Source: Curtobacterium salicis
GTDB taxonomy: Bacteria; Actinomycetota; Actinomycetes; Actinomycetales; Microbacteriaceae
Length of the DNA: 64,000 nt
Assembly (NCBI RefSeq): GCF_011759505.1
Contig: NZ_JAAOYO010000003.1
Span: 434,001 to 498,000 of the forward strand
Reading direction: 5' to 3'
Part shown: positions 7,670 to 56,366 of the stretch, in pieces
How positions within the stretch are numbered: position 1 is the stretch's first letter
Layout of the letters: each line of letters starts with the position of its first letter
Translations under genes and position numbers: made by a program
The notes under the pieces: generated by a model
Told to the model about the DNA's origin: nothing
What the model saw: only the letters and a program-made list of their open reading frames with translations
The model's database searches: none

Positions 7670-8575
7670 ATGAGGATCGGCCTGGACATCGGCGGGACGA
7701 AGATCGACGCCGTCGCGGTCGCTCCGACCGGGCAGACCGTCGACCGGGTCCGTGTGCCGACCGGCTTCGGCGCCGAGCAGGTCGTCGCCAACACCCTGCA
7801 GGTGATCGATGCGCTGCGCGGACGGACCGGCACGACGCCCACCGCCGTCGGCATCGGGATCCCGGGGCTCATCGACCACGAGACCGGCTGGGTCCGGCAC
7901 GCCGTGAACCTCGGACTGTCCGAGGTCGCCCTCGGTCCACTCGTCGCCGAGCACGTCGGGCTGCCCGTGCAGGTGGAGAACGACGTCAACGTCGCGGCCC
8001 TCGGGGCGGCGCAGGCGATGCACCTCGACGGTGCACACGCCTACCTCAACATCGGCACCGGCCTCGCGGCCGGCATCGTCGTCGACCGGCGGCTCTGGCG
8101 GGGCGCCCGGGGGAACGCGGGCGAGGTCGGCCACATCCCGGTGCTCGCCGACGGTCCGCCGTGCGTGTGCGGACAACGCGGCTGCCTCGAGACGGTCGCC
8201 TCGGGCTCCGCACTGGCGGCTGCATGGCCCGGGCACCCGGGCACCACCGCCACCGAGGTCTTCGACAGCGCGGACGCCGGGGACCCGGCCGCGACCGCGG
8301 TCCGCGACCGGTTCGTCGCCGGCGTCGCCTCCGCCGTCCGGATCCTCGTCGTGACGGTCGACGTGGACTCCGTCGTCATCGGCGGTGGGCTCGCCGCCCT
8401 CGGCGAGCGCCTCCTCCTGCCGCTCCGCGCGGACTTCGACGAGGCCGCACGCTCCTCCCCCTTCGTCGCGTCGCTCGGCCTGTCGTCCCGCGTGCTCCTT
8501 GCGCCGCTCGACCAGCCGCTCGCCGCACTCGGCGCCGCCCACCTGGCTCCCGAGTCCGCCGTGACGACCGCCTGA
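7670..8575 (+). CDS. ROK-family sugar kinase
   Basis: A 301-residue glucokinase-like protein that should phosphorylate the sugar imported by the adjacent ABC system. It begins MRIGLDIGGTKIDAVAVAP, containing the ATP-phosphate loop DIGGTK. It has the sugar-binding ENDVNVAALG strand, the ROK signature GTGLAAGIVVDRRLWRGARG and the zinc cluster CVCGQRGCLE. A GTG 78 bases upstream also opens the frame, but the ATG places DIGGTK at the usual position. It is divergent from the ROK regulator and shares its operator region. ROK kinases vary in specificity, so glucokinase is only one option. Confidence 0.88.
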   Translation: MRIGLDIGGTKIDAVAVAPTGQTVDRVRVPTGFGAEQVVANTLQVIDALRGRTGTTPTAVGIGIPGLIDHETGWVRHAVNLGLSEVALGPLVAEHVGLPVQVENDVNVAALGAAQAMHLDGAHAYLNIGTGLAAGIVVDRRLWRGARGNAGEVGHIPVLADGPPCVCGQRGCLETVASGSALAAAWPGHPGTTATEVFDSADAGDPAATAVRDRFVAGVASAVRILVVTVDVDSVVIGGGLAALGERLLLPLRADFDEAARSSPFVASLGLSSRVLLAPLDQPLAALGAAHLAPESAVTTA

Positions 8576-8726
8576 CGCGAGGGGCGGGACCCGGCCGAGC
8601 CGAACCTCCCGTCCGCCGCGTCGGTCGCCACGACCCCTGTCGGCGCCGACCACCCGGTCGGGCCGGCGCACTCCCCGTCCGGATCCACCGTCCGCCGCGG
8701 CACCCGCGGCTGGAAGTGAGCACGCC

Positions 8727-10097: not shown

Positions 10098-10175
10098 CCC
10101 GGCGGGTCGGTCGGTTCGGGAACACGCCGAGGCCCGCGCGTGTTCAGACCACCACCTCGACGAAAGGAGTCCGCC

Positions 10176-10301
10176 GTGATCGACGACGACCGCACCCCAG
10201 GCCAGCGCACCGACGTGGCCCAGCACCCGCAGTTCCGCCTGCAGGACGACGAACCGACGGGCTTCGGCCGCTGGCTCGGACTCATCAACGCCGGAGACTG
10301 A
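10176..10301 (+). CDS. Small acidic protein, unknown
   Basis: A 41-codon frame starting GTG, with a perfect AAAGGAG ribosome binding site seven bases upstream. It encodes an Asp-rich start (IDDDRTPGQRTD), a polar middle (QHPQFRLQDDEPT) and an amphipathic tail (GFGRWLGLINAGD). High GC at third positions and the strong binding site support translation. It follows the glycosidase-like gene by 78 bases and is closed by the hairpin at 10328. No family is recognised. Confidence 0.5.
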   Translation: MIDDDRTPGQRTDVAQHPQFRLQDDEPTGFGRWLGLINAGD

Positions 10302-10327
10302 CCCCTCCGGGCACGACCAGCAGACAG

Positions 10328-10374
10328 ACAGGAGGCCCGGCGCCGGTCCACGAGACCGGTGCCGGGCCTCCTGT
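10328..10374. terminator. Hairpin terminator, GGAGGC family
   Basis: Arms of about 20 bases (CAGGAGGCCCGGCGCCGGTC with a single G-T mismatch) around a short loop, immediately after the small gene at 10176. The core is one base away from the ACGGGAGGC core of the other hairpins. Confidence 0.75.
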
Positions 10375-10426
10375 GCGTTGTCCCGGCGACCGGCGGCACG
10401 TCCACGCACGCGGGTACGGTCGGAGC

Positions 10427-10954
10427 GTGCACGGGATCGGTGAGGTCGACGAGGCCGGGCGGCTGCGGCTGCTCGGCAGCGCGGCGGCGGGCGCGGGCTT
10501 CGCGCTCGTGTTCACCATGCTCGTCCTGTCCTCGTTCCGGACCGCGACCCCGCAGGTGCTCGTCTCCGTCGGACTCCCCGCGGCCCTCGTCGGCGCGGCG
10601 GTCGCCGGCTGGTTGCAGCTCCGGTCGTGGCGCACCGACGGCGGCTACGAGGCCGTCGTGATGGCCGAACGGTGGGTGAGCGAACGGCACGTGCCGTCCG
10701 GGGTCCCCGCCGAGATCTGGGTCCCGCGACTGCAGGCCCAGGCCGACCAGCAGACCGCCGGGTGGGGCAAGATCGTGCTCGCCGTGTTCTGGAGCGCGAT
10801 GACGTGGTCGATGCGCGACCAGCACGGCACCGTGATCACGCTGCTGCTGCTCGGGCTGTGGGCCGGCCTCGCGCTGTGGAGTGCGCTGTGGGTGATCCCG
10901 CGCTCGCGGGTCGCCAGGGACATGCTGCGGCAGGGCGTCGTCGTCCGCGACTGA
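10427..10954 (+). CDS. Hypothetical four-helix membrane protein
   Basis: A 175-residue protein starting at a GTG (HGIGEVDEAGRLRLLGSAAA). Two hydrophobic segments lie near residues 15-35 and 42-62. A soluble stretch with QAQADQQTAGWGK follows, then another pair at about 112-150 before a basic tail. The layout suggests four helices with a short cytoplasmic middle. It does not match a family I can name. It converges on the antiporter gene with only four bases between the stops. Confidence 0.55.
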   Translation: MHGIGEVDEAGRLRLLGSAAAGAGFALVFTMLVLSSFRTATPQVLVSVGLPAALVGAAVAGWLQLRSWRTDGGYEAVVMAERWVSERHVPSGVPAEIWVPRLQAQADQQTAGWGKIVLAVFWSAMTWSMRDQHGTVITLLLLGLWAGLALWSALWVIPRSRVARDMLRQGVVVRD

Positions 10955-42129: not shown

Positions 42130-43080
42130 GTGACCGTCCGCCGTCCTCGCAGCCCGATGTTCTGGGCCCTCGCACAAGTCGGGTCCCGCGTCCGCGCCGG
42201 ATCCCCGCGCGGCCTGCCGGGACCGAGCACGCCGCTGCCCGCCCCGACGGACCTCCAGATCCCGACCCGGCACGGCACGGTCCGCGCGGTGGTGCAACGC
42301 CCCGCCGTCGACGTCACCGACGCTCCGGTCGTGATGCAGCTGCACGGCGGCGGCTTCGTCAACCGGTACCCCGAGCAGGACCTCCACATCGCCCGAGCGA
42401 TGGCCGACCGGCTGGGTGCCGTCGTGGTGTTGCCCGACTACGACACCGGCACGCGTGTGCAGTACCCGGTCGCCGAGGAAGAGGCCTACGACATCGCGCG
42501 GTGGCTTCAGGACGAGATCGGAGCCGGGCGGTCCGGGTCTCGGCTCCTGCTCAGCGGCGTCAGCGCTGGAGCAAAACTCGCGATCAACGTCTGCCAACAG
42601 CTGCATGCCGCGTCGCTGCCGAGTCCCCTGGCCGTCGCGCTCGTCGTCCCGGTGACGGACGTGATGCGCACGGACCGCACGTCGAACGTCCGTCGCCCGG
42701 CGATCAGTCCGTTCGTGCAGCGCTTCGTCGGCTGGGCGTACTTCCCGGACACCGCCCGCCAGCAGGAGCCGCTCGCGTCCCCGTCCCGCGACAACGCGCT
42801 ACCCGAGGCGATGCCGCCGACGCTCGTACTGACCGGCGGTGACGACACGCTCGCCCCCGAGGCGGCCGAGCTCGTCGCGCAGCTCCGGAACGGGGGCGTC
42901 CACACGGAGCACCACGTCTTCGTCGGGTCGGACCACGACTTCGTCGCGGGCCGCGATCGATCGGTCATCGTAGAGACACTCGACCGGCTCACCGACTTCT
43001 TCGCCACGCAGCTCGCGCGCCCGAGCCTGGACCCGAGCGTCGACCCGGACACGGACACGGACGAGCGGAGCACCCGGTAG
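42130..43080 (+). CDS. HSL-type alpha/beta hydrolase (esterase)
   Basis: A 316-residue hydrolase. The HGGGF motif at about residues 72-76 supplies the oxyanion hole of hormone-sensitive-lipase-type esterases. The Ser elbow is GVSAGAKLAI near residue 144. TLVLTGGDDTLAPEA and VFVGSDHDFV hold the catalytic Asp and His. No signal peptide. It is the last gene before the low-GC island. Confidence 0.85.
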   Translation: MTVRRPRSPMFWALAQVGSRVRAGSPRGLPGPSTPLPAPTDLQIPTRHGTVRAVVQRPAVDVTDAPVVMQLHGGGFVNRYPEQDLHIARAMADRLGAVVVLPDYDTGTRVQYPVAEEEAYDIARWLQDEIGAGRSGSRLLLSGVSAGAKLAINVCQQLHAASLPSPLAVALVVPVTDVMRTDRTSNVRRPAISPFVQRFVGWAYFPDTARQQEPLASPSRDNALPEAMPPTLVLTGGDDTLAPEAAELVAQLRNGGVHTEHHVFVGSDHDFVAGRDRSVIVETLDRLTDFFATQLARPSLDPSVDPDTDTDERSTR

Positions 43081-43453
43081 TCGACCGACCACCGGGCGGA
43101 GCCCGTCGCAGCGCAGAGTGGCCTGCCGATCACTTCGCTGCGGCCTGCTCATCACATCGCGAGGAGCTGCGCGTTCCGGGCTGCGATCTCCTCGTCGGTG
43201 TCCGGGGAGATCATCGGCAAACACAAGCGCCGCTTTTTAAAGCGTGACGGGATCGCCGTAAATACCTCCGTCATCCCCGTCAACGGTTCGGTTCGTCGGG
43301 TGCACGGTGATCATCACGATCGTGATGGCCTCGCGTGACTTTCGCTCCTCGACAAGTTGGCCCACCTGGAACTTTTTGGCAGGCGTGCTCGGTGAATAGG
43401 CAGGAGGAAGGAGCCACTATCCGCGAGAATGCGGCAAACACGGCACCACTGGG
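43081..43453. other. Intergenic boundary of the accessory island
   Basis: From about 43215 the sequence turns visibly AT-richer (GCCGCTTTTTAAAGCG at 43229-43244, a six-base-arm palindrome). A 20-codon gene remnant lies at 43152. Otherwise no gene, tRNA or clear repeat is seen; this looks like the left junction of the island. Confidence 0.45.
43152..43214 (-). pseudogene. C-terminal remnant of a gene, 20 codons
   Basis: The frame reads MISPDTDEEIAARNAQLLAM and then stops. It is codon-biased like the core genome and ends in a helical DEEIAARNAQLL segment. No ribosome binding site precedes it and the reading frame upstream turns into AT-rich sequence. It is best explained as the tail of a gene cut off by the island insertion, though a chance frame cannot be excluded. 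Confidence 0.35.
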
Positions 43454-43750
43454 TCAGTGAGTCAGGGCACCAATCACGTTCCGCCAGTCCATGCCATCGA
43501 GGGCACGGTCGAAACTGATCGAGTTCGACGAGTTACCGACTTCGTTCTTCGTGCGAAGGTCAAATATCAGGACAATGTACGAGCCGTCACTCACGCCCTT
43601 CGGCCCGTGGAAATCAACTCTAAGCGGGTTCCCGTCCACCGCACCATAGATGGTCACCAGGACGTCGGGGATCTCCGGACCCCTTGCACCTGCGATGAAA
43701 GTGACGCCGCGGGTCGCGAACTGCCGCGCAACGCCCGCTTCCATTTCCAA
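43454..43750 (-). CDS. Hypothetical protein in the island
   Basis: A 98-residue protein: MEMEAGVARQFATRGVTFIA, then PEIPDVLVTIYGAVDGNPLR, VDFHGPKGVSDGSYIVLIFD and an end at NVIGALTH. The strand-like middle (TIYGAVDGNPLRVDFHG and SYIVLIFDLRTK) suggests a compact beta fold. A coding-like frame just upstream (43934-43760, VECLLIRGFRELGSAFGSW) is shifted against it, so the gene may be a truncated or frameshifted longer protein. The ribosome binding site is weak. No family. Confidence 0.4.
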   Translation of the reverse strand: MEMEAGVARQFATRGVTFIAGARGPEIPDVLVTIYGAVDGNPLRVDFHGPKGVSDGSYIVLIFDLRTKNEVGNSSNSISFDRALDGMDWRNVIGALTH

Positions 43751-44352
43751 TGCCGAGATATTGGCTTCCTCTCAAGCGCGTCATCCGCTGCGAGCAGCCT
43801 TCCGCACACTTGCGGTCGGAAAGTGCGATGTGTCGCGGATCCCAAGAACCGAAAGCGCTGCCAAGTTCTCTGAACCCGCGGATCAAGAGGCACTCGACGT
43901 CCACGAGGCTAACAGTTGTCGTCCGCCAGGTCATCGACCCCTACGCACGACAGCTCGCCCGGTGGGTTGCCGAGGGACGGATGAGCGGTGATGAGGCGGT
44001 CGCGTTCATCACAGTCCTAATCGACGACGAGGCCTGCCTTCTCGATCCCGATGCACCTTCCGATCCCGGGCACCAGGTGGAGACAACGCATTGGGGTGTT
44101 GACCTGCAGGGGGCAGTCGACCGCCGCGACACCGCACATTTCGACGCAACAGCTCGGGCTTCTAGTGCGAAGCGGTGCGACAGGGCGTTCCGACAGGCGG
44201 TCGGCGCTTCGGGTCTCGATAACAACCTGGAGCTTCGGGATCAATTTCTCGTGGAACTCATCCGCGATGTGCTGCGCGGCCAGCGGTCCGAAGACGAAGC
44301 GCTCTCCGCTGGCCTCCGCCACATTCGCGAAGCGCACCAGACCGGTGACTGA
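43750..44352 (+). CDS. Hypothetical island protein, start uncertain
   Basis: Up to 200 codons. The first 55 or so, from the ATG at 43750, look non-coding. Coding quality begins near IDPYARQLARWVAEGRMSGD. A good ribosome binding site (GAGGGA) precedes the ATG at 43981 (MSGDEAVAFITVLIDDEACL), giving 123 residues. Two segments look like an internal repeat: GRMSGDEAVAF and GQRSEDEALSA, each after a helix. This hints at a small helical protein, perhaps a regulator or antitoxin, but no family is recognised. Confidence 0.35.
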   Translation: MPRYWLPLKRVIRCEQPSAHLRSESAMCRGSQEPKALPSSLNPRIKRHSTSTRLTVVVRQVIDPYARQLARWVAEGRMSGDEAVAFITVLIDDEACLLDPDAPSDPGHQVETTHWGVDLQGAVDRRDTAHFDATARASSAKRCDRAFRQAVGASGLDNNLELRDQFLVELIRDVLRGQRSEDEALSAGLRHIREAHQTGD

Positions 44353-44445
44353 CTGGGCGCCACGCTCTCGCCGCGACTGGCCTGATCCACGCGAGCCACG
44401 GATTCACACCCGCAGCCTGAGTGTCGCCATCATGGGTCGGCGGAC

Positions 44446-47148
44446 CTAGGGGAGGCGCTTTAGGCCACGTCGTGCCTTCATCAGACCCACGTCGCTCCCA
44501 TTTCGTTTCGGGTCGAGCTGACTCATGACCTTGGCCTGGGTCTCAGGGGTCCAGTAGATCTTCAGCTCTTCGCGAGCGCGGGTGATCGCTGTGTAGAAGA
44601 TTCCGTGCGAGATATCGTCCTCGTTGGCGTCGGTAATGACGACCTTCACGGAGTCGTATTCGAGGCCCTGTGAGCGGTGAATCGAGACGGCGTAAGCAAC
44701 TTGGAACGGCACAGTACTGCGGTCGTCTTCACTGTCGGCGTCAGTGTTAGCAGGCAGATAGACGCTGAACCGAACGACGGACTCGTCGACGTACTCGAGA
44801 TCGTCGACGCCCCACACGCTTAGCTCGGAGAAATTGCGATCGAGCCACACGTCGAACTGAATTCGACCCGCATCGACCTGAACATCGACAATTCGACCCT
44901 TGAGATTGTTGTGGATCAGCGGCGCGAATCGACCGGAGTTTCCGAAGACAATCGGATCTCCGACCTTGTACGTGCTGGCACCCCAGGTAACTGTATTGCC
45001 TGTATTACCCGCCTGAAGGAATCGGTTGATGTTATTGATGCCGTAGAGTCCGTCGTAGTTCAAGCAGAGGATGATTTCGTCTTCTCGAAGCGGCGTAAAC
45101 AGGGAATCATCGAGCACCCCGGAGAAGCCGTGATGCGCAATTGATTCTTCGATGCCGTCTTCGAGGTTTCGCACCTTGTCCCAGAAATCGAGCAGGCCCT
45201 CGTCACTGGTGCGCCATGGTTTCGTGAGCTGGAAAACCGCCTGCTTTGGCAAGAACTCCGGAACGATGCTGAACCAGTTGCCGAACTGGATCGCCTCGAT
45301 CTGGAAGACGTCACCCACGAGAACGAGCAGCTGGAAGTTGGTGTTGTCCAGAATCTTGATCATGTCAGCGTTGCTGACGACACTGCACTCATCAATGACG
45401 AGCACGTCGTAGCTACCCCCGCCCCCGCGACCCAGGTGGCTTGCGATGGTACGGAACTCGGCATTTTGGGCAGCGACCTTGCGCTCCAGATTGGCCTTTG
45501 CAGGGTTGGTGTGTGCGAGGAAGAGCTTGGAGTTCTCGCCGAAGTAGTTGGCGATGTAGTTGACCATCGTGGACTTGCCAGTGCCTGCGGCTCCGTAAAT
45601 GAAGGCGACGCGGGATCGCGCGAAGAGCGACTTCAGAGCTTCGCGCTTCGACTCGTCGTCTACCTTCAGTGGCGTTTCGTCGAGCCAGCGGTCGACCGCT
45701 TGCTCGTGTCCGCTTACGCCGCTGTCCGCCAGCGCCTGCAGGCGCTCGACGATGCCGACCGTGTCATCTTCGTACTGATGCATGAAGACATGACCCTTGT
45801 CTTTCTCGAGCGCGCGTCCTGCATGGCGAGGGGTCGGCGGCAGGGTGTCGTTGTGCCGCTTGATCAGGGCGTCGAGGTCGTCTAAGCCAGCCAGATCGTC
45901 GACAGACGTATAGAGCCGACCCTCTTGCTCCACGTTCGTTCGTATCCGTCGGCCGAGGAGCTCGTGCTCGCGGCCAGAGGTGTCGAGAGCTTCGAACAGG
46001 TCCGCCATGCGCGGTACGTGGCCGGCGGGGCTGGCAGCGAATGGCATGGAGTCAAATGGACTCGCACGAGACGTTAGCCGGAGATTCGACAGATACCGGT
46101 TCGGTCGGCCATCCTGTTGCAGCTTGATGACGCGGTTGTTCATCTCCAGCATCAGATACCGGACGATATTGGTGCCTGGAGCCTTCGACTGCACTAACGA
46201 GCGCACGCTATCGAGCATCGGGAAGATTCGAGGTGGCTTCGCAGTGGCAACGGCAAATGCCTTGATGCGGTCGTACTGGGCCTGATCCATGTCCATGAGA
46301 TCGAGCAAGCTCGCGCCGACCTCGGTGAGGTAGCGCATGAGCGCGTTGTACTCATTCGTCCGACTGGACGACGTCTCCTTGCCGAAGATTTCGGCGAGGT
46401 GCTGGATCTCGCAGGGTCGGATCGCCACCTTCCAACCACGAATAATAGTGATCGGCATCTTGCGCCCGAGCACCATAATCTCGTCGTGGACAAGGAACAG
46501 GTGAGCGGCATAGCGCGACGTCATGTCGATGTCCGTGAACGCAATGATGCGGGCGAACTTGCTTGTATTATCAGTGATGCTCGTGAAGGTGACCTCGTAA
46601 AGGATGCGGCCACCCGTTACGAACGGCCTCACGGACTGCACGTAGAAGTGGTCCTCCTTACCCTCGCCGGGAGCCAACATCGCCGTGGCATCGATCCGCT
46701 CTGCGATCTTCTCGTGATACTCGCGAAGCGATGGATCCAGATCCACCGGGAAGTCTTCAAGATTCGCGAGGACGTCCAGCCCGAACTCGTCTCGAAGAAG
46801 AGCGCGGATGCGAAGGAGGTACGTATAGTACTTCAGCATTAAACGCTCGGAGACGTCACCGTCGAACGTGTAGTGCGACTCGCTCTGCTGCAGCAGCTTG
46901 TGGAACCGGTGCAGAAAAACGAACTTCTTCCCGGACGAGCCAATCCAGGATGTCCCCGCCTTGATCGCATCGTGATCGTACGTCGTGTCATCCGACTTCG
47001 TGTGTGCGCGGACGATGACGCCTTCAGTTAGATCGCGCAGCTGCTTAATGACATTCTTCGACATTAGCTTTCGGTTGCCGGCGAGTTCCTCGATATTCTC
47101 CGAGATAGTCGTGGCGGCAGACGCGATCTGACTTCCTACGCTCGCCAT
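44446..47148 (-). CDS. Large RecD/UvrD-type helicase with novel N-terminal half
   Basis: 900 residues. The C-terminal half is an SF1 helicase: Walker A GAAGTGKST at 519-527, Walker B VLVIDECSVV at 582-591 (DEC), motif III LVGDVFQIEAI at 610-620, LTKPWRT at 641-647, motif V VSIHRSQGLEYDSVKVV at 821-837 and motif VI YTAITRARE at 852-860. All key ATPase residues are present. Residues 1-500 contain no recognised domain, with alternating helices and strands. The ATG sits three bases after the Schlafen-type gene stop, behind AGGAGGA, so the pair is co-translated. Likely an ATP-driven nucleic-acid motor in a defence module. Confidence 0.8.
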   Translation of the reverse strand: MASVGSQIASAATTISENIEELAGNRKLMSKNVIKQLRDLTEGVIVRAHTKSDDTTYDHDAIKAGTSWIGSSGKKFVFLHRFHKLLQQSESHYTFDGDVSERLMLKYYTYLLRIRALLRDEFGLDVLANLEDFPVDLDPSLREYHEKIAERIDATAMLAPGEGKEDHFYVQSVRPFVTGGRILYEVTFTSITDNTSKFARIIAFTDIDMTSRYAAHLFLVHDEIMVLGRKMPITIIRGWKVAIRPCEIQHLAEIFGKETSSSRTNEYNALMRYLTEVGASLLDLMDMDQAQYDRIKAFAVATAKPPRIFPMLDSVRSLVQSKAPGTNIVRYLMLEMNNRVIKLQQDGRPNRYLSNLRLTSRASPFDSMPFAASPAGHVPRMADLFEALDTSGREHELLGRRIRTNVEQEGRLYTSVDDLAGLDDLDALIKRHNDTLPPTPRHAGRALEKDKGHVFMHQYEDDTVGIVERLQALADSGVSGHEQAVDRWLDETPLKVDDESKREALKSLFARSRVAFIYGAAGTGKSTMVNYIANYFGENSKLFLAHTNPAKANLERKVAAQNAEFRTIASHLGRGGGGSYDVLVIDECSVVSNADMIKILDNTNFQLLVLVGDVFQIEAIQFGNWFSIVPEFLPKQAVFQLTKPWRTSDEGLLDFWDKVRNLEDGIEESIAHHGFSGVLDDSLFTPLREDEIILCLNYDGLYGINNINRFLQAGNTGNTVTWGASTYKVGDPIVFGNSGRFAPLIHNNLKGRIVDVQVDAGRIQFDVWLDRNFSELSVWGVDDLEYVDESVVRFSVYLPANTDADSEDDRSTVPFQVAYAVSIHRSQGLEYDSVKVVITDANEDDISHGIFYTAITRAREELKIYWTPETQAKVMSQLDPKRNGSDVGLMKARRGLKRLP

Positions 47149-47151
47149 CGG

Positions 47152-48552
47152 CTATTCCTCCTCGTCCTGGAGAAGAAGCACACGTCTTGCTGCGCTCGTT
47201 ACGTCGACTGGGCTCGCGACCGGGATCGAGATCTCGCCCTTAAACACCTCGTTGTGGTCGCGGGCCGTCAGCTGCCAAGTGCCGTGGATGGCGGTGAGAG
47301 AGGCATCCGCCACGAAGAGTACGAACTCTTCGTCTTCAGACTCGTAGCTCCCGAGCGGTCGAAGCTCGCCGATGTCGAGATCGAGATCTACCGATCCGCC
47401 GTTCTTGAAGCTGACAGACGGCGGGAAAGACTGACCCGGCGTCGAGGGATGCATATAGGCAAGGTGCGAGTAGTCCGGAACCCCGAGCGTCCGCTGGGTC
47501 GGTCCCCAAATGCGTGGAGGGCGTGGAAGCTCGAGATTCGAGAAGTCATCTGCCCACTCCGGATCCACGAATGCTGTCGCGAACACCTCGCCTTCGAGAT
47601 GAAGCTTCATTTCGACATCGTGGAAGAACACGGTTGTCCGGTTGGTCACTTTGACGATGATCGGGGTGAGCAAGCTAGCCGCGACTCGGGCGCGCGCCGA
47701 GGACCATGCAGCGCGAAAACGATCCTCCCAAGCATCGATGGAGGCACGATAGGTCTCTTCGGTTCGCTCTTCCGGGATCAGCATTGCGCTCACGATCGAT
47801 GAGATCCCGTTGAGCCCCATAAGCGCCGTACGGCCAGAGCTGCCCGGATAATCATCGTCGACGGTGGTGGGCGGCTGCGGAGTCGGGAGGGCGCCAAGCA
47901 GCCGAGCGGTCTGTCGGCTCAGATACTCATCGATCGTTCGCTCGTCGTCGTGACTGATCGGCGAGATCTCCCCGAGCACCTCTACCGCGAAGTCGACCTC
48001 CACCTTCGACGCAGCGCTTCCACGTTGGATAAGAAGGTCGACTTCGTCAGCATTCGCCTCGCGCGTTTCGCCATCGGCCCGGATGTAGATGCGGCCGTTG
48101 GTCAGCGAGTCACCACTGCTGCGGCACGGGAAGGGCCCCTGTCCGGGCATAGGCGGGTCAACCAGCACGACCAGTACCTGATTCGTGGCGTTGTGGATTG
48201 GCACCCACACGATGTCCCAGCGAGGGCCGGCTGCACCGACGTACTGCTGGACGATCTTTGCGATCTCCATCATCTCGATCGGCGGAATACCCATGATCGA
48301 ACCTCCGCCAACGCCGATCACCATCGCGGCGTAGCCCTCGAAGGCAGCCGCTGCTGTCTCCGGCATGCGGTTCGCTGCGCCGAGGATGAACTTGGCAATC
48401 TTCTCCTTGTCCTTCTTCGTGGACAGATCGAGGATGCTCTTCAGTTCGAGATAGTGACGCTCGGCCAAGTCTCCGTGCTCAGCAGCAGCCATCACGAGAC
48501 GTTGCGCAGCCAGGACTCCTCGCGGCGCTAGCGAGGTGTCGATACCAGTCAT
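47152..48552 (-). CDS. Schlafen/AlbA_2-domain protein
   Basis: 466 residues from the ATG at 48552 (GGAG upstream); a longer frame of 14 residues is possible. An AlbA_2-type domain covers about residues 20-180: ERHYLELKSILDLS opens it, AMVIGVGGGSIMGIPP is the GxGG core, and NGRIYIRADGETREANADEV is the typical R-G-x-T-x-x-A end. Some members of this fold are RNases (Schlafen), others bind nucleic acid. The remaining 285 residues, with DVEMKLHLEGEVFATAFVDP and beta-rich stretches, are unassigned. Upstream partner of the helicase in a two-gene operon. Nuclease activity is not proven from the sequence. Confidence 0.7.
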   Translation of the reverse strand: MTGIDTSLAPRGVLAAQRLVMAAAEHGDLAERHYLELKSILDLSTKKDKEKIAKFILGAANRMPETAAAAFEGYAAMVIGVGGGSIMGIPPIEMMEIAKIVQQYVGAAGPRWDIVWVPIHNATNQVLVVLVDPPMPGQGPFPCRSSGDSLTNGRIYIRADGETREANADEVDLLIQRGSAASKVEVDFAVEVLGEISPISHDDERTIDEYLSRQTARLLGALPTPQPPTTVDDDYPGSSGRTALMGLNGISSIVSAMLIPEERTEETYRASIDAWEDRFRAAWSSARARVAASLLTPIIVKVTNRTTVFFHDVEMKLHLEGEVFATAFVDPEWADDFSNLELPRPPRIWGPTQRTLGVPDYSHLAYMHPSTPGQSFPPSVSFKNGGSVDLDLDIGELRPLGSYESEDEEFVLFVADASLTAIHGTWQLTARDHNEVFKGEISIPVASPVDVTSAARRVLLLQDEEE

Positions 48553-49019
48553 AGCGCGCTCCGTACGTAAGAGGGACTGAGTAGGTGGCCACACATCTTC
48601 GCGTCGTCAGCGCCGATTCAGCGGAGGCGCCAACGGTTGCGATAGCCACGAGGCTTTAGGTTATCCGTGGTATCCGACGATCCACGCCTGGCGCTTCGGG
48701 AGGCCGCGACGTTGCTGACGCTGGCGGAGAGGTTCACACTGGCGGCCGGTCGCCGGCGTCGTGCGTGGGGTCGACGGTTGTTGTGGTGCGCGTTCAGACC
48801 TTTGAGGCCTCGGCTGCCCCGAGGTGAAAGGGCTCTTCGCAGTTGACGGGATACAGGACAAAAAACATGCCCGTCTGTCAAGCGTCATCAAACGCCTTTG
48901 AGAGGCTCGACGTGTCTTGCAGGCGTGACGCGATGGTCAGGCAATCTGTCGCTCCGAGCTGCCGGCGACACGTTTCGTGAGCCGACGACACTTTGCGTGT
49001 CCGTTCACAGACAACTCCC
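48553..49019. other. 467-base leader region of the island operon
   Basis: Between dnaB and the Schlafen-type gene. On the minus strand a TTGACA at 48876-48881 is followed by TGTATC at 48850-48855 (spacing 20) or TCCTGT at 48853-48858 (spacing 17): a possible promoter about 300 bases before the operon. GACGGG/CCCGTC around 48846-48875 could be a hairpin. On the plus strand a frame from GTG (about 48669; SDDPRLALREAATLLTLAER) has some coding character but no binding site. No gene is claimed. Confidence 0.4.
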
Positions 49020-50384
49020 TTACTGCGGCATGTCCACGAACCGCGAGAACATCCCGTGGAACGCAACAGTGATGGTGTCCGTCGGCCCGTTACGGTGCTT
49101 CGCCACGATCAGGTCCGCCTCACCCTGACGCGGGTTGTCCTTTTCGTACGCGGACTCGCGGTGCAGCAGGATGACCATGTCGGCGTCCTGCTCGATCGAC
49201 CCGGACTCACGGAGGTCGGAGATCATCGGCTTCTTGTCGGCACGCTGCTCGGGCCCACGGTTCAGCTGCGACAGGGCGATGACGGGCACCTGCAGCTCCT
49301 TCGCCATGAGCTTGAGCGCACGTGAGAACTCGGAGACCTCTTGCTGGCGGCTCTCGACCTTCTTGCCGGAGGTCATCAGCTGCAGGTAGTCGATGACGAC
49401 GAGCTTCAGGTTGTGCTGCTGCTTGAGGCGACGGCACTTGGCGCGGATCTCGACGAGGGTCATGTTCGGGGAGTCGTCGATGAAGAACGGGGCGTCGTTG
49501 ATGCGGCCGCGGGTCTGCGCGATGGTGGTCCAGTCGCGGGCGTCGACGGTGCCCTTGCGCATGTTCTGCAGCGGCACGCTGGACTCGGCGGACAGCAGGC
49601 GCATGGCGATCTCGGCGCGCCCCATCTCGAGCGAGAAGAACGCGGCGGTCTGGTTGTGCTTGAGCGCTGCGGAGCGGCACAGGTCGAGCGCCAGGGTCGA
49701 CTTGCCCAGTGCGGGTCGTGCGGCGACGATGATCAGCTGTCCGGGGTGGAAGCCGTTGGTCAGGGCGTCCATCTGGGCGAACCCGGTGGGGACGCCGGTC
49801 ATCTGTCCGTCGCGGCCCTTGGCGGCTTCGATCTCGTCGATGGCGGTGCCGATGGCTTCGGTGAGGGGGACGTAGTCCTCGGTCTGCACGCCGCCGGCGA
49901 CGTTGTAGACCTCGGCCTGGGCGCTGTTGACGAGGTCGGTGACCTCGCCTTCGCTGGCGTAGCCCATCTGGACGATGCGGGTGCCGGCTTCGACCAGGCG
50001 GCGGAGGACGGCCTTCTCGGCGACGATGGCGGCGTAGTAGCCGGCGTTCGCCGCGGTCGGCACCATGCTCGTCAGGCTGTGCAGGTACTCGGCGCCGCCG
50101 CCGCGGGACAGCAGGCCCGTCTTCGTCAGCTCGTCGGTGACGGCGATGACGTCGGTCGGCTCGCCGTGCGAGTACAGCGAGAGGATCGCGTCGAAGATGA
50201 CCTCGTGCTTGGGGATGTAGAAGTCGACGCCGCGGGCGGTCTCGATGACGTCGGCGACGGCGTCCTTCGACAGCATCATGCCGCCGATGGTCGACTGCTC
50301 GGCGAGCATGTCGTGCGGGGGAGTCCGGTCGGCGTTCCGCTCGGCGTACTCCCGGGGGGCCGGGTCCAGATGCGCGATCGACAC
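49020..50384 (-). CDS. dnaB: Replicative DNA helicase
   Basis: 454 residues starting GTG. The N-terminal primase-interaction domain (DMLAEQSTIGGMMLSKDAVA, VDFYIPKHEVIFDAI) precedes the RecA-like motor: Walker A ARPALGKSTLALDLC near residue 225, SLEMGRAEIAMRL, VVIDYLQLM, and QLNRGPEQRADKKPMISDLR with the DLRESGSIEQDAD sequence. It unwinds DNA at the replication fork. No intein is present. It is flanked by DnaA-box-like repeats upstream. Confidence 0.97.
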   Translation of the reverse strand: MSIAHLDPAPREYAERNADRTPPHDMLAEQSTIGGMMLSKDAVADVIETARGVDFYIPKHEVIFDAILSLYSHGEPTDVIAVTDELTKTGLLSRGGGAEYLHSLTSMVPTAANAGYYAAIVAEKAVLRRLVEAGTRIVQMGYASEGEVTDLVNSAQAEVYNVAGGVQTEDYVPLTEAIGTAIDEIEAAKGRDGQMTGVPTGFAQMDALTNGFHPGQLIIVAARPALGKSTLALDLCRSAALKHNQTAAFFSLEMGRAEIAMRLLSAESSVPLQNMRKGTVDARDWTTIAQTRGRINDAPFFIDDSPNMTLVEIRAKCRRLKQQHNLKLVVIDYLQLMTSGKKVESRQQEVSEFSRALKLMAKELQVPVIALSQLNRGPEQRADKKPMISDLRESGSIEQDADMVILLHRESAYEKDNPRQGEADLIVAKHRNGPTDTITVAFHGMFSRFVDMPQ

Positions 50385-50826: not shown

Positions 50827-53800
50827 TCAGCCGGCCCGCGCCTCCAGGACGTCCCCGGCCGCCGCCGACACGCCGTCACCGGCCGAAGACACGGCGACGG
50901 CGGAGGACACGGCCACGACGGAGGACGACACGTCGATCGAACCGGTCCGGGTCGCAGCCGTGACCATCGGCACCTGGACGGTCGAGGCGATGCCCGTCCC
51001 CAGGTGCACGAGCGCCGTACCGGGCTGCACGCGTGACGAGAGCGACGAGCGCGAGATCCGCACGCCCACCAGGTCCCCGGCGAGCGTGTCCTGCGGCGAC
51101 AGCAGCGCACCGCGACGGTTCTTCTTGGCGTCCACCTGCCACCCGCCGAACCCGGAGGCCAGCCCGGTCGTGTTGCCCCCGAGCACCAGCCCCTGCCCGT
51201 TGTCGGCCAACCCGCGGACGAAGGTGCGGAGCTCCGCCTTGGCGGAGCAGTCGATGAGCAGCTCACCGTCGTCGACGACGAGCACGACGCCGGGCCGGCC
51301 GAGCAGCACCTCGACGTCGGACGCGGTGACGTCGTCCCCGGTGACGGTCGCCAGGACACCGGGCAGGCCGGCGAGGTCGCGGACGGCGCCGGGCCTCGGT
51401 GCGAAGACCACGATCGGCGTCCCGCCCGCCAGCAGCGACCGCGCCATCGCGGCGACCATGGTGGATCGGCCGGCGCGGGACGGCCCGGCCACCACGAAGG
51501 TGCCGCCGCCCTCGCGCAGGTCCACGGTCTGCAGCGACATGTCGTCGCCGCCGATGCCGGTGACCGCGACCATCGGTGCCGGCGCGGGCGCCCCGCCGAG
51601 GGCGAGCGCGCCGTCGAGGTCCAGGTCCTTCGGCAGCGCGTCGACCCGGAACGGCCGGATGCGGGGGAGTCCACGCGTCTCCTCGTCCGCCCGGATCCGT
51701 CGCGCGAGCGCCTGGACGGCAGCGGTCTGCCCCTGACCCGAGACGTCCTCGCCGAGGGTGGCGACGTGCAGCTCGGTCGCGCTGTCCGCACGGAAGCCGC
51801 GGCCCGGTGGGATGGCGGCCGGCAGCTGCCGGTGGTTGATGCCACCGAGCGAGTAGTCGAGCCGGTCGGTCAGGCGCATCACGATCTTGTCGTCGGTGAG
51901 CGTCGACATCCGCGAGGTCAGCAGCGTCCGGTCGCCGGAGATCACGACGTGGATGCCGGCTCCGGTGCCGTCCCGGAGCAGGGACTGGATCGCCTCGGTG
52001 AGGGACCCGCCGTCGAACTCGCCGAGCGTGGTCGTGAAGTTCTCCCACCGGTCGACCAGGACGAGCACGTGCGGCAGGCGGTCCGCCACGGCGGCGAGCA
52101 TCCGCTGCTCGGTGATGTTCGCGGCCCCGGCCGCGGCGATCACGTCGTGCCGTCGCGCCATCTCGCGGGTCAGCCGTTCGATCAGCCGGGAGGCACGCTC
52201 CACCTGGGTGCGCTGGGCGACGGCCCCGCAGTGGGGCAGGGACTGCAACGACGCCAGGGCGCCGTTGCCGCAGTCGACGACGTAGAGGTGCAGGTCGCTG
52301 GAGGCGATCGAACCGGCTGCCGAGGCAGCCAGGGTGCGGAGCGCCTGCGACCGGCCGGAGCCGGGGGCACCCACGACGTAGAGGTGGCCGAAACGCTCGA
52401 GGTCGATGGTCGCGGCACGCTGCTGCTGGGTGTCGGGCAGGTCCTCGAGGCCCCAGGCGAAGGTCAGCGCCGAACCCCCGACGGTGGTTTCGCCGACAGC
52501 AGCATCGGCATCGACGCCGGATGACGTGCCTCCGACGGACGCCGAGGCCACCGTGGACAGGGGGAGCAGCTCGGGCAGCGGCGGCAGCCACGGCGAGTGC
52601 AGTGGGCCGATGCCCATCTGCTCCCGGGCGTCCCGCATCGCGCCGACCAGGACGGACAGGTCGGTCGCCGCCGACCCCGGCCCGGACTTCGACGGTCGCT
52701 CGGGCGGCGACATCGCGAAGTCCCGCCACTCCAGCACGCGGACGAACGGCAGGACGGCACTCGCGTCCGCTTCTCCGGCCCATCGTCCACCGACGCGGGC
52801 GGACTGGAACGGCACGACCGACGAGTGCCCCAACCGGGCGTATGCCCGTCCGGGCACGCTCTTCGGGATGCGTGCCGCATCGGCCACGTCGATGACGTCG
52901 GTGCTCTCGCCGCCGTCCGTCATCCGGAGCGCGACGCGCAGGTTCGTGTTCGCGCGGATGTCCGGACCGACCACGCCACCGGGGCGCTGGGTGGCGAGGA
53001 TCAGGTGCACGCCGAGGGACCGACCGCGCTGGGCGATGCCGATCAACCCGGCGACGAAGTCGGGCAACTCGGTGACCATCGCGGCGAACTCGTCGATGAC
53101 CAGCACGAGCCGGGGCATCTGCTCGCCCGACCCACCGCGGGCCAGGTGCGCCTCGTGGTCCTCGATGTCCTTCGCCCCGGACGCGGCCAGCACGTGCTCG
53201 CGGCGGGTCAGCTCGGCACGCAGGGAACGGAGTGCCCGCTCCACCAGGTGCTGGTCCAGGTCGGTGACCAGCCCGACGGTGTGCGGCAGCTCCGAGGCGA
53301 CGCTGAAGGCCGCACCGCCCTTGTAGTCGACGAGCACGAAGGTCATCCGGTCCGGCCGGTTGGCGGCGGCGAGCGAGGCGACGAGGGTCTGCAGGAACTC
53401 GGACTTGCCCGACCCGGTGGTGCCGGCGACGAGCCCGTGGGGGCCGTCCCGCACCAGGTCGAGGGCGAACGGCCCGTCGATGCCGACGCCGACGACCGCC
53501 GAGGTCGTGGGGGAGCCGGAGCGCCAGCGGGCCGCCATCACCGATCCCGTCGGCTGGGGCAGGTCGAGCACGTCGAGCAGCCGCGCACTGTCGGGCACGA
53601 GGCCGTCGCTGCCCGAGCCCGAGGTGTCGCGGAGTGGGGACAGCGCCCGGGCGACCTCGTCGAACCAGTCGTCGTCGACGCGGTCGGCCAGCACGAGGTC
53701 GACCGGCGCGGACATCTGGCGGCGGAGGACGAGCTGCGTCGGCGAGCGGTGCAGCACCGTGGCGACGCACTCCTCCGGCAGCTGCCACTCCTCCTCGTCG

Positions 53801-55425
53801 ATGCAGATGAGTCGGATGCCCAGGGCGGGCCCGTCCCGGAGCAGTCCGACCACCCCGGGCATCGCACGGAGCCGCCGTGCACCGTCCAGCACGACGACGA
53901 CCTCGGGCGAGAACCGACGCCGGCTGTTGACGTGCTTCTGCCGTTCGGCCCGACGCTCGGCGAGCACCTGCGTCAGTTCGGCCAGGCGACGGCCGATCGT
54001 CTCGGCGTCCGACCCGACCAGGGCCAGTGCCTCCTGCCCGTCGACCGGTCGCACGTGGGGGAGCCAGACCGTCCACGCCCAGTCCGGCACGGCGGCCTTC
54101 GACGTCAGCACGACGAACTGCACCTCGCGCGGGGACTGCGTGACGGCGAGCTGGCCGAGCAGCCAGCGTCCGACCGAGCGGGGCCAGGTGCCGGGCCCCG
54201 CGATGCCGACCACGCCGACCTCGGCGAGCGGCACCGTCACGGGCACACCGCGGGTCCACCGGGGTTCCTGGCCCAGGCGGTCCTGGTCGCGCTCGTCCTC
54301 CACGGTGACGGTGGCGGGCAGGTCGCCGATGCCGACGCGGACGTGCAGGTGGTCGGCGTCCGTCGGCCGTCGCTCCCACAGCCGCCGGGTCGGGGTCGTC
54401 GCGGTGATCCGGAGCGCCGCGGCGTCGAGGGAGTCCTCGCGGCGCTGGTCCCGCTCGGCGAGCACGGCTCCGGCGACGGCGGCCTCGATCGCCCGCACCC
54501 GGTCGGCGTGGTCCGCCAGGGCCTTGCGGTGGCTCTTCTTGCCGGTCTTCCGCGCGGTCACGGTCTGGCCGATCACCATGATCGGCGTCATCGCGGCGAA
54601 CAGCAGGTAGAACGGCGAGTGGAAGACGGTCGCCATCACGATGCCGAACATCGCCGGCACGAACACCATGATCCACGGCAGTGCCGACCGCTGCGGCGGC
54701 ACGGGCGGCTTCGGGATCCGGAACGCGGTCGGACGGAGCGGCGGCAGCAGGCGGGGCGGCCGGTTGAAGTCGAGCTGGCCGGAGTCCGGCGGCCGCAGCA
54801 GCATCCGGTCGACCACGGCCACCGGACGGACGGTCAGTGCCGTCTCGGCCACCCGGAGGACCGCGCCCGGCTCCCACTCGGTCCACTCGTCGCCGATCCG
54901 TCCGCCGTCGACGGTGACCTCGGGCAGCGCGGCGCCGTCCGGAGCACCCTCGGTCGCGGACGGGCCGTCGTCGTCGGTGTCCGGGTCCGGCTCGGCGACG
55001 AGGGCCGGGGCGAGGCGGACGGTGACGGTGCCGTCGAAGGCGATCCGTGCCTCCAGGCCGGCCAGCCCCGCCGTCTCGGAACCGGTGAGCGTGTCGCTGT
55101 CCGGGGTGAACGCCAGGCGGACGGTCCCGACGCCGACCCGGACGCACCGGCCGGCCCCGACGCCACCGGCGACGAGCAGGTCGACCAGACCTCGCCCCGC
55201 ACCGGTGTCGGCGTCCGCGCCGATGTGCAGGACGGCGCCGTCCACCAGGCCGCTGTCGGCGAACCGGACGTCGGCGTCACCGGCCTCGGCGGGCAGCGGT
55301 GTGCCACCGGTCCGGCGGGCGAGCGCGTCCACGACGGAGCGCATGGTGGCGGATCCGGGCGCGTCGATGAGGACGTCCGAGCGCACGCCCGTGACGTCGT
55401 CGACGACGGTGACGACGACCTGCAT
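50827..55425 (-). CDS. eccC: Type VII secretion ATPase, EccC/EssC type
   Basis: 1532 residues. The N-terminal 200 residues are beta-rich, FHA/ubiquitin-like, as in EssC. Two hydrophobic segments (ALPWIMVFVPAMFGIVMATV, FYLLFAAMTPIMVIGQTV) anchor it near residues 245-290. Three FtsK-type ATPase domains follow: D1 GTTGSGKSEFL near 665 with Walker B LVLVIDEFAAMV; D2 GAPGSGRSQAL near 1017; D3 GPSRAGRSTMV near 1312. In D2 and D3 the Walker lysine is Arg, so only D1 is expected to be fully active. It powers export of WXG100 proteins. It is coupled to the next gene by a one-base overlap. Confidence 0.9.
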   Translation of the reverse strand: MQVVVTVVDDVTGVRSDVLIDAPGSATMRSVVDALARRTGGTPLPAEAGDADVRFADSGLVDGAVLHIGADADTGAGRGLVDLLVAGGVGAGRCVRVGVGTVRLAFTPDSDTLTGSETAGLAGLEARIAFDGTVTVRLAPALVAEPDPDTDDDGPSATEGAPDGAALPEVTVDGGRIGDEWTEWEPGAVLRVAETALTVRPVAVVDRMLLRPPDSGQLDFNRPPRLLPPLRPTAFRIPKPPVPPQRSALPWIMVFVPAMFGIVMATVFHSPFYLLFAAMTPIMVIGQTVTARKTGKKSHRKALADHADRVRAIEAAVAGAVLAERDQRREDSLDAAALRITATTPTRRLWERRPTDADHLHVRVGIGDLPATVTVEDERDQDRLGQEPRWTRGVPVTVPLAEVGVVGIAGPGTWPRSVGRWLLGQLAVTQSPREVQFVVLTSKAAVPDWAWTVWLPHVRPVDGQEALALVGSDAETIGRRLAELTQVLAERRAERQKHVNSRRRFSPEVVVVLDGARRLRAMPGVVGLLRDGPALGIRLICIDEEEWQLPEECVATVLHRSPTQLVLRRQMSAPVDLVLADRVDDDWFDEVARALSPLRDTSGSGSDGLVPDSARLLDVLDLPQPTGSVMAARWRSGSPTTSAVVGVGIDGPFALDLVRDGPHGLVAGTTGSGKSEFLQTLVASLAAANRPDRMTFVLVDYKGGAAFSVASELPHTVGLVTDLDQHLVERALRSLRAELTRREHVLAASGAKDIEDHEAHLARGGSGEQMPRLVLVIDEFAAMVTELPDFVAGLIGIAQRGRSLGVHLILATQRPGGVVGPDIRANTNLRVALRMTDGGESTDVIDVADAARIPKSVPGRAYARLGHSSVVPFQSARVGGRWAGEADASAVLPFVRVLEWRDFAMSPPERPSKSGPGSAATDLSVLVGAMRDAREQMGIGPLHSPWLPPLPELLPLSTVASASVGGTSSGVDADAAVGETTVGGSALTFAWGLEDLPDTQQQRAATIDLERFGHLYVVGAPGSGRSQALRTLAASAAGSIASSDLHLYVVDCGNGALASLQSLPHCGAVAQRTQVERASRLIERLTREMARRHDVIAAAGAANITEQRMLAAVADRLPHVLVLVDRWENFTTTLGEFDGGSLTEAIQSLLRDGTGAGIHVVISGDRTLLTSRMSTLTDDKIVMRLTDRLDYSLGGINHRQLPAAIPPGRGFRADSATELHVATLGEDVSGQGQTAAVQALARRIRADEETRGLPRIRPFRVDALPKDLDLDGALALGGAPAPAPMVAVTGIGGDDMSLQTVDLREGGGTFVVAGPSRAGRSTMVAAMARSLLAGGTPIVVFAPRPGAVRDLAGLPGVLATVTGDDVTASDVEVLLGRPGVVLVVDDGELLIDCSAKAELRTFVRGLADNGQGLVLGGNTTGLASGFGGWQVDAKKNRRGALLSPQDTLAGDLVGVRISRSSLSSRVQPGTALVHLGTGIASTVQVPMVTAATRTGSIDVSSSVVAVSSAVAVSSAGDGVSAAAGDVLEARAG

Positions 55426-56366
55426 CAGGCGCTGGCCGTCTGCGCCGGGGCGGTCCCGGTCGGCGCCGGAGCGGCCGTGCCGGACTCCTCGACGACCGGT
55501 TCGGACAGCCCGAGGTCCGTCCACCGGACCGTCCCGAGCTCCGCCGAGGTCGACGTGCCGTCACGTCGGCACTCGAGCGTCCAGCGGGCGAGCGGACTCG
55601 GTTGCATCGCGAGGACCGCCCAGCGGCCGCTCGGCCGCTCGAGCAGACGCACCAGTTCGCGGCCGTCCGCACCGCCGGGCAGGCTCTGGACGACCAGGAG
55701 GCCCGGGGTCGTGTCCGCCGCGACCGTCGCGACCGCCTCGGCGACGGACACGGACGCCGCGGGTCCGAACAGGTCGGCGCGGACGCCGACCGTGAGGACC
55801 GGCGTCGTCCGGGACCACGGGTCGGTGCGCACCTGGTCGACGACCCGGCGGGCGAGGGCGACCCGGGCGGCGCGGTCCCCGCCCAGGGCGACGACCCCGG
55901 CGACCGCGGAGAGGTCGACCAGGACGCTGCCGTCCTCGTCGGTGCCGAGTCCCACGACGGTCGCGAACGCGGCCGAGGCGTCCTCGGTCAGGGCGACCGC
56001 CTGCAGGGCGTGCATCGGAGCGGACCACGAGCGGCCGTCCGCGGTGGCGGTCCACGGTTCGGGCGGGGCCACCGTGGGCGAGGTCAGGTCGAGTCGGACG
56101 GTCGCCCCGACGGCGGCACGCACGAACCCGGGGAACACCACGCCGGCCACGCGACACGAGGCCTCGACGCTCCGGAGCACACGGTCGACGGCCCACGGGG
56201 TCGCGTCGTCGCGGCGGACCCGGTCGGCCCAGGCGATGGCGTCGGTCGCGGTGCCGCGGCGGAGGGCGACCATCACCGGGACGACGAAGGCCAGGGTGGC
56301 GGCGAACAGCAGGGCCGCGCAGGTGAGCACCAGGTGGGACACCGGGTGCAGGAAGTCCCAGGTCAC
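55425..56366 (-). CDS. Membrane-anchored T7SS-associated protein
   Basis: 313 residues with one hydrophobic segment at about 12-34 (LVLTCAALLFAATLAFVVPV) and then a cytoplasmic domain with AMHALQAVALTEDASAAFAT and DRAARVALARRVVDQV. No family is recognised. Its start overlaps the preceding gene by four bases (GTGA) and its stop overlaps the ATPase start by one. The tight coupling indicates a structural or regulatory subunit of the secretion machine. Confidence 0.6.
   Translation of the reverse strand: MTWDFLHPVSHLVLTCAALLFAATLAFVVPVMVALRRGTATDAIAWADRVRRDDATPWAVDRVLRSVEASCRVAGVVFPGFVRAAVGATVRLDLTSPTVAPPEPWTATADGRSWSAPMHALQAVALTEDASAAFATVVGLGTDEDGSVLVDLSAVAGVVALGGDRAARVALARRVVDQVRTDPWSRTTPVLTVGVRADLFGPAASVSVAEAVATVAADTTPGLLVVQSLPGGADGRELVRLLERPSGRWAVLAMQPSPLARWTLECRRDGTSTSAELGTVRWTDLGLSEPVVEESGTAAPAPTGTAPAQTASA

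Follow-up and report, generated by a model that had tools for sequence, protein, structure and literature searches.

Group III Schlafens consist of an AlbA_2 ribonuclease (RNase) core and a superfamily 1 (SF1) helicase. The active site of SLFN13 is formed by E205, E210 and D248, and its E205A and E210A variants are inactive (available part of PMC5862951). Schlafen-family RNases are furthermore described as backup effectors linked to BREX (accessible sections of PMC12839542), and the RNase PrrC, an anticodon nuclease that is encoded together with HsdMSR of the type IC system EcoPrrI and acts as a second line, is freed when a phage inhibits the enzyme (available parts of PMC12707154 and PMC3710099). 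Here we describe a gene pair that resembles these systems in its parts. It is located in a 64,000-nucleotide stretch of the Curtobacterium salicis genome (RefSeq assembly GCF_011759505.1, contig NZ_JAAOYO010000003.1, positions 434,001 to 498,000; hereafter the window), in which a Schlafen-like protein, termed ALB, is encoded directly upstream of an SF1B helicase, termed HEL. L and G numbers are our handles for the loci and genomes compared.

Within a modular family linked to restriction, the pair represents one combination and not a fixed new system. HEL itself is not an unknown protein, as it is already catalogued in PADLOC as the uncharacterised defence candidate PDC-S53; what is new is its context, namely the linkage of HEL to type I restriction genes in several lineages. 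A role of the pair in defence is likely. More specifically, we propose, with the scales about level, that it is an accessory module for defence, mobile and of a type that follows restriction-modification (RM) operons, in this case with no RM genes beside it and at a variable site next to dnaB. In this module HEL would act as motor and sensor and ALB as an exchangeable effector.

Both genes are intact open reading frames (ORFs) and lie consecutively on the minus strand, ALB (466 aa) at 47152 to 48552 and HEL (900 aa) at 44446 to 47148. The ALB stop codon (47152-47154) and the HEL ATG (47146-47148) are separated by three bases, and in these respects the sequence-only reading on which this work builds was accurate. 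It had also placed a coupled translation signal, AGGAGGA, between the genes. This motif (47156 to 47162, minus strand) fits a coupled start, but it is not intergenic and sits in the final ALB codons, 7 nt ahead of the HEL ATG; despite this position of the Shine-Dalgarno sequence inside ALB, the HEL start is a normal coupled start. ALB has a GGAG ahead of its ATG at 48552, which by reading is preferred over a GTG at 48594. A scan for promoter and terminator signals gave no more than shuffled sequence. The genome carries one full-length copy each of ALB and HEL, and a second HEL match is partial and weak (E 4e-7).

The motor of HEL occupies residues 500-870, where Pfam matches to AAA_30 (E=2e-17), UvrD_C_2 (E=1e-10) and related motor domains bear out the earlier call of a RecD/UvrD-type helicase. 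Matches in the PDB and PHROG are to RecD2, RecD, Pif1 and Dda-like helicases, with PHROG 325 ('Dda-like helicase') covering residues 25-880, and PADLOC PDC-S53 matches residues 1-897 on positions 1-897 of its 900-position profile, at 1246.5 bits. The S in this name stands for single. Since the NCBIfam equivalog cut-offs are missed (TIGR01447, 88.3 vs 310; TIGR01448, 83.6 vs 500), HEL is an SF1B relative and not RecD or RecD2. Alignments of 22 and 26 rows keep the motor residues invariant, namely G522, G524 and K525 of the Walker A motif GAAGTGKS (residues 519-526; 45571 to 45594, minus strand), D586-E587, G612-D613, Q616, Q827-G828 and T856-R857; a T-to-V change in Walker A is found in 13 of the 26 rows. 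The N-terminal residues 1-480 are conserved and have no Pfam family of their own, and a search of this region against the PDB returned only a chance-level RecF match (E=0.35). A HEPN motif was also considered there. R26 and R102 are invariant (22/22 and 26/26), but R38 is kept in 13 of 26 rows and S91-H92 in 15 of 26, and HEL therefore has no Rx4-6H motif.

Relatives of HEL are sparsely distributed. At E 1e-60, and with the window's own genome counted, they occur in 9 of 299 family, 8 of 396 order and 3 of 396 phylum genomes; within the genus HEL is not fixed, the six other genus genomes in the family search being without it at this threshold. Further copies are found in five plasmid records, where they align over 99-100% (one is annotated in pieces), in 28 IMG/VR loci (two partial) and in two phage genomes, a third phage record being partial. 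The association with restriction was assessed in 17 HEL genomes from the family, order and phylum searches, picked by HEL score only and holding 16 HsdR_N matches in total. In six of them (G073, G180, G187, G360, G909, G926) HEL has an HsdR at a distance of up to 10 kb, where 0.095 would be expected (Poisson P 9e-10), and in all six HEL is located downstream of type I genes on the same strand. The HsdR proteins of G187, G073 and G909 (L040, L042, L121) are 94-95% identical to one another and those of G180 and G360 (L043, L047) 89%, with that of G926 (L118) standing apart; an IMG/VR locus, L138, adds a fourth lineage next to HEL, of the EcoR124 type. Between these four HsdR groups local identity is 23-31% over stretches of more than 150 residues. 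In L121 (G909), HEL is split over two frames (7983-10804).

Genes other than hsd also precede HEL, including those for an HTH-IrrE peptidase protein (L008; one gene further off in L117), an SMC-like ATPase (L039), a SpoU methylase (L013) and an nSTAND ATPase (L041, with a 141-aa ORF between). RM functions recur among the neighbours of HEL in IMG/VR, where matches were counted per protein, over 25 of 73 families, for the 95 proteins from 27 loci that are 180 aa or longer and no more than four genes away from HEL. They include four C5 DNA methylases, three ResIII, two HsdM and two HsdS proteins, SacI, Eco47II and LlaJI endonucleases and one AbiH, as well as four recombinases. In the phage phi1605 HEL is located beside an annotated type IIS endonuclease and Dam, and in TPDSL_ph1 beside two methyltransferases. 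An 'ATP-binding protein' downstream of HEL in L010, considered as an AlbA_2 partner, matches GHKL-type ATPases instead, just at the cut-off (25.1 vs 25 bits); the available part of PMC2292703 describes RM operons that include GHKL ATPases.

The same linkage could reflect self-protection. Helicases of the RecD2/Pif1/Dda type, to which the HEL motor belongs, are the class used at forks and breaks. The pair might accordingly be a repair accessory of restriction systems, not an antiviral one, with HEL unwinding or restarting forks at HsdR-damaged DNA and limiting self-restriction. We regard this as quite unlikely, as 11 of the 17 HEL genomes have no HsdR near HEL and a distribution as sparse as 9 of 299 is unlike that of core repair genes. 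The neighbourhoods that were scanned contained no recognisable repair operon.

No RM genes were found beside the pair in the window. The host genome has a single HsdR_N match, about 200 kb from the pair (G000:C3, ~679.7-685.6 kb; L122 5707-11650), adjoined upstream by two genes of HsdS- and HsdM-like size, of which the HsdM-like one is backed by BLAST. This HsdR is of the L138 type (57% identical), and in L138 HEL lies next to HsdR. It is possible, as a prediction only, that the host HsdR acts in trans with the pair.

The partner of HEL changes between loci. The L047-type locus has the order HsdM, HsdS, Ymh protein, HsdR, ALB, HEL, and a Ymh (PF09509) protein lies between HsdS and HsdR in the type I loci of L047, L002 and L043; the Ymh family is described as HEPN in the available part of PMC3710099. 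The HsdR proteins of L047 and L043 are 89% identical, yet the genes downstream differ, with ALB and HEL in the former and a 315-aa protein followed by another HEL, 53% identical to that of L047, in the latter. The 315-aa protein (L043 7050-7997) is unrelated to ALB and has hydrophobic stretches at both ends, which by reading makes it a membrane type. Between the window and L047, identity is 50% for HEL and 66% for ALB. The gene trees are discordant. The window HEL forms a group with that of L043 (support 1.0) and does not belong to the clade that holds the ALB-paired HELs. The latter, from L047, L002 and L003, fall within this adjoining clade (support 1.0) together with HELs that lack ALB, and the two clades join at 0.86; in the ALB tree, the window groups with L001, L002, L003 and L047 (support 1.0). 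The two genes have therefore been paired more than once, or the partner has been replaced, or ALB has been lost several times.

A different partner family, of 277-464 aa, is encoded just before HEL in 16 of the 27 IMG/VR loci (L126, L127, L129, L131-L136, L139-L141, L143, L144, L146, L148) and in both phages (L162 5089-5925, L163 5146-5982), and HEL thus often has a partner. Members share a C-terminus around 'YVKLHPD...FPYDAFIDDW' or close to it, and the gene lies 6-56 bp ahead of HEL; in L144, whose HEL is split, it is the second gene upstream. The IMG/VR contigs that carry it are probably from Firmicutes. The possibility that this prophage partner is itself an AlbA_2 protein was dropped, since the three members scanned (L132, L129, L143) gave no such Pfam match; nor did any Pfam family score above cut-off in them. 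The N-terminus of the L132 partner matches PHROG 6948, of unknown function.

ALB is composed of an AlbA_2/Schlafen-like N-terminal domain, a helical linker and a C-terminal beta-sandwich, as judged from a profile search, an alignment and a fold model of low confidence. Its sole Pfam match in the window is to SLFN_AlbA_2 (PF04326; E=0.028, 15.4 bits), all 118 profile positions of which align to residues 31-167 (48052 to 48462, minus strand). The motif E31-x4-E36-x-K38 in this domain is present in 13 of the 14 aligned ALB sequences, the window's included; the exception, L057, has an unrelated N-terminus. A profile built from the 14 sequences found one PDB chain over the AlbA_2 domain, CbCash (E=0.026), amid chance matches of similar strength. 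The AlphaFold model, built from five sequences, has a pLDDT (predicted local distance difference test score) of 56, with only residues ~261-330 and ~411-460 mostly at 67-88; it suggests, with low confidence and as a secondary-structure outline only, an alpha/beta domain, a long helix and a C-terminal beta-sandwich. The Schlafen/AlbA_2 identity proposed from the sequence is therefore qualified: the Pfam score falls short (15.4 vs 25.3 bits), but E31, E36 and K38 are kept and the marginal CbCash match agrees. Likewise, on the nuclease residues that had been left undecided, two of the three acidic residues of SLFN13 have counterparts in ALB, E31 and E36 having the E-x4-E spacing of E205 and E210, but the third was not found.

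Relatives of ALB at E 1e-10 occur in 14 of 396 genomes of the order, at 15 places. In L002, L047 and L050 ALB comes after a type I HsdR, and in L049 after a type III Mod-Res pair, from which a 103-aa ORF separates it; in L050 and L049 it thus stands behind type I or type III enzymes without HEL. The 14 ALB genomes have four HsdR_N matches, two of them within 10 kb of ALB (G360, G078; 0.03 expected, P 4e-4), where G360 also counts among the six HEL-HsdR cases. One ALB relative, in L056 (6058-8497), is broken into two separate pieces. Large helicase-like proteins beside ALB in L054 and L055, considered as a second pairing, are TrwC relaxases.

These neighbourhoods bear on whether ALB is an effector at all. 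HEL alone might be the defence, as the single-gene PDC-S53, with ALB a DNA-binding regulator or adaptor upstream that sets helicase expression or loading. The PDC-S53 profile models one gene, HEL has varied partners and in some loci none evident, the HTH-IrrE-peptidase protein precedes HEL in L008, prophage-type loci often have small HTH-like genes after HEL (by reading), and the third acidic residue was not found in ALB; on this view, AlbA_2 domains that lack a full catalytic triad bind nucleic acid. We nevertheless consider this unlikely, because a protein that stands behind type I and type III restriction genes in L050 and L049 without HEL is not just the regulator of HEL, and because E31, E36 and K38 are kept in 13 of 14 sequences.

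The pair is located in an AT-richer island (43220 to 49009) with a guanine-cytosine (GC) content of 59.7%, against 71.8% for the remainder of the window, where no other 5.8-kb stretch falls below 68.8%. The sequence-only reading had recognised this island between a hydrolase gene and dnaB, and comparison of the interval in relatives confirms it as variable, with homology lost at 43220 and at the dnaB stop. To the left lies an alpha/beta hydrolase-like gene (42130 to 43080, plus strand; motif by reading, and DNA comparison with relatives). L153 and L154 are 89% identical to the window here until position 43220, beyond which both carry a whole minus-strand gene of 388-392 aa, of which the window retains only the last part; part of the left region is present in 16 of 60 genus genomes, the own genome included. 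The cut gene (window 43120-43220; L153 4495-5673, L154 4442-5608) resembles an FAD-dependent oxidoreductase (start read by eye). Remnant ORFs had been suspected at this border, and a 200-aa ORF convergent to HEL (43750 to 44352, plus strand), with only a below-cut-off match to GCP_N_terminal (E=0.24), may be one.

On the right, the island ends at the stop of dnaB (49020 to 50384, minus strand; named by reading). A query with dnaB found a match in each of the 60 genus genomes, the own genome among them (in G1071 and G1110 by short weak pieces only), and the 3' flanks of 20 of the 59 others were compared. In 20 of 20, DNA homology ends within 55 bases of the dnaB stop. None of these flanks, mostly of about 8 kb and in pieces that do not extend beyond the dnaB start, matches other parts of the window at E 1e-8, and some pairs of flanks have in common only pieces of about 200 to 1,440 bases. 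Given the continuity of L153 and L154 through the cut gene and the loss of homology at the dnaB stop, the island is an insertion or replacement that has cut one adjoining gene. Direct repeats at the island edges were considered as attachment (att) sites, none being convincing, and no tRNA genes were found within the window. Further right, a 1565-aa ORF (50827-55524) resembles an FtsK/EccC-type ATPase of a type VII secretion system (by reading).

An island of this kind could also hold a stranded leftover, the RM operon having been lost and the pair remaining as a passenger on its way to decay. There is no hsd gene beside the pair, in L003 the pair lies behind an HsdM-like fragment only, and a cut gene and unassigned ORFs mark the left border. 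We judge this very unlikely: neither frame is broken, HEL retains its key residues, and the window HEL falls outside the clade of the other ALB-paired HELs, so that the combination has its own history.

The 3' flank of dnaB is a strongly variable site in the genus, with known defence systems in some of the 20 flanks. A PADLOC scan of 83 proteins of at least 225 aa from these flanks (L089-L108) gave, among 25 of the 155 matched families, one protein each for GajA, GajB, a CBASS cyclase, E1-E2, a SAVED-type effector, DolA, DolB and RmrA. Gabija could be placed in the flank of L105 and RmrA in that of L100, with CBASS and Dodola somewhere among the 20. Single scans of 20 flank proteins (E 1e-10 or 1e-20) returned three Gabija or RmrA matches and 16 without any, and one L107 protein had a marginal transporter-like match. 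That the pair lies in a flank which in some relatives holds Gabija, RmrA, CBASS and Dodola proteins also argues against self-protection as its function. The dnaB flank of this genus is therewith a ready place to look for more defence systems.

Second-line RNases in RM operons and the layered L047-type locus are the reasons why we read ALB as an effector or nucleic-acid binder and HEL as a DNA-tracking sensor or motor. For this module, we infer the DNA substrate, the polarity, the contact between ALB and HEL, the effector activity and the trigger as follows. HEL would be the constant motor and sensor, loading on the ends, single strands or forks of DNA that restriction or phage replication produces and translocating 5'-3' like RecD2, Pif1 and Dda. 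ALB would be the exchangeable partner, a nucleic-acid-binding protein of the Schlafen/AlbA_2 type and probably an RNase-type effector, which may be kept inactive until it receives a signal from HEL or from a restriction enzyme that has been blocked, in a way that resembles PrrC and EcoPrrI. The HsdR of the host, at a distance of 200 kb, could be involved or could have no part in this.

Several observations weigh against this proposal. ALB and HEL were seen together in only four loci (window, L002, L003, L047), of which L002, L003 and L047 are close kin, and each mostly occurs without the other; the pair is therefore not a fixed system. In the order samples, taken as the same 396 genomes from shared handles and counts, HEL is found in 8, ALB in 14 and both in 2 of 396 (P 0.03); without the window's own genome both occur in 1 of 395, with 0.23 expected (P 0.21), and co-occurrence alone therefore proves nothing. 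The six RM-linked HELs represent only three HsdR lineages (P of three or more, 1e-4), and the genomes without HsdR within 10 kb of HEL include that of the window. ALB misses the Pfam cut-off and has no conserved acid after IGV, the expected site of the third Schlafen residue (placed by reading, not structure). Moreover, HEL relatives are found in phages (PHROG 325; phi1605, TPDSL_ph1), and 6 of the 95 HEL neighbours in IMG/VR are phage antirepressors, and the family is therefore not only host defence. The neighbourhood survey that had been suggested thus yields RM linkage for both genes, but the pair itself in four loci, and the suspected antiphage-type island is upheld by the PDC-S53 match, the sparse distribution, the plasmid- and phage-type carriage, the defence proteins in the relatives' flank and the RM linkage, although not as a fixed pair.

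A broader reading is possible, though rather doubtful at present: HEL (PDC-S53) may be the constant core of a widespread, RM-coupled and modular immune platform, recognising DNA that is foreign or restricted and powering an interchangeable effector whose gene lies just ahead of its own. The effectors would then be Schlafen-like in the window, membrane-type in L043, HTH-IrrE in L008 and the '...FPYDAFIDDW...' protein in 16 of 27 IMG/VR loci and two phages. If true, the window holds a version of the module that has parted from its restriction enzyme and that amounts to a bacterial equivalent of group III Schlafens in two genes. PDC-S53, so far a catalogue entry, gains a testable job as a second-line defence tied to restriction, a proposal based on four distinct type I enzyme lineages, several type II systems and exchangeable partners.

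With regard to known systems, no paper on an AlbA_2-helicase pair was among the matches listed in the open-licence literature, nor was the name PDC-S53 found there; the available part of PMC11514479 names other PDC-S systems, not S53. The earlier statement that no named system has exactly this pair thus agrees with the literature searched, but the helicase half is already listed. PDC-S53 corresponds to HEL over its full length; it models the helicase alone, whereas here HEL is coupled to ALB and its relatives often lie beside RM genes. Gabija is likewise a two-gene defence with an SF1 helicase, and occurs in the dnaB flank of L105. However, ALB has no PADLOC match up to E=1 and is therefore not GajA, and HEL scores at most 23.6 bits against GajB. 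The Schlafens of BREX share with ALB a Schlafen-type part linked to a DNA-modifying defence, but in BREX loci they are fused to a minimal histidine kinase and a winged helix-turn-helix (available sections of PMC12839542). ALB, in contrast, has a predicted beta-sandwich C-terminus (low-confidence model), and its relatives occur with type I and type III RM genes. Like PrrC, ALB occupies a place by hsd genes in L047, L002 and L050; a position in or next to an hsd operon holds for some ALB and HEL relatives, but not in the window, where the nearest HsdR_N is about 200 kb off and no hsd gene is adjacent, and PrrC is an ABC-ATPase-HEPN protein, whereas ALB is AlbA_2-like and paired with a helicase. 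Group III Schlafens differ from the pair in that the genes here are unfused, HEL stays below the cut-off of SLFN-g3_helicase (PF09848; 22.2 vs 24 bits) and the third acid was not found in ALB. Both combine an AlbA_2-like part with an SF1 helicase, here in two genes and with the E-x4-E spacing of SLFN13, which is a likeness of parts. The Schlafen-like partner of HEL thereby bears on the relation of animal Schlafen immunity, which joins tRNA cleavage to an SF1 helicase, to bacterial defence.

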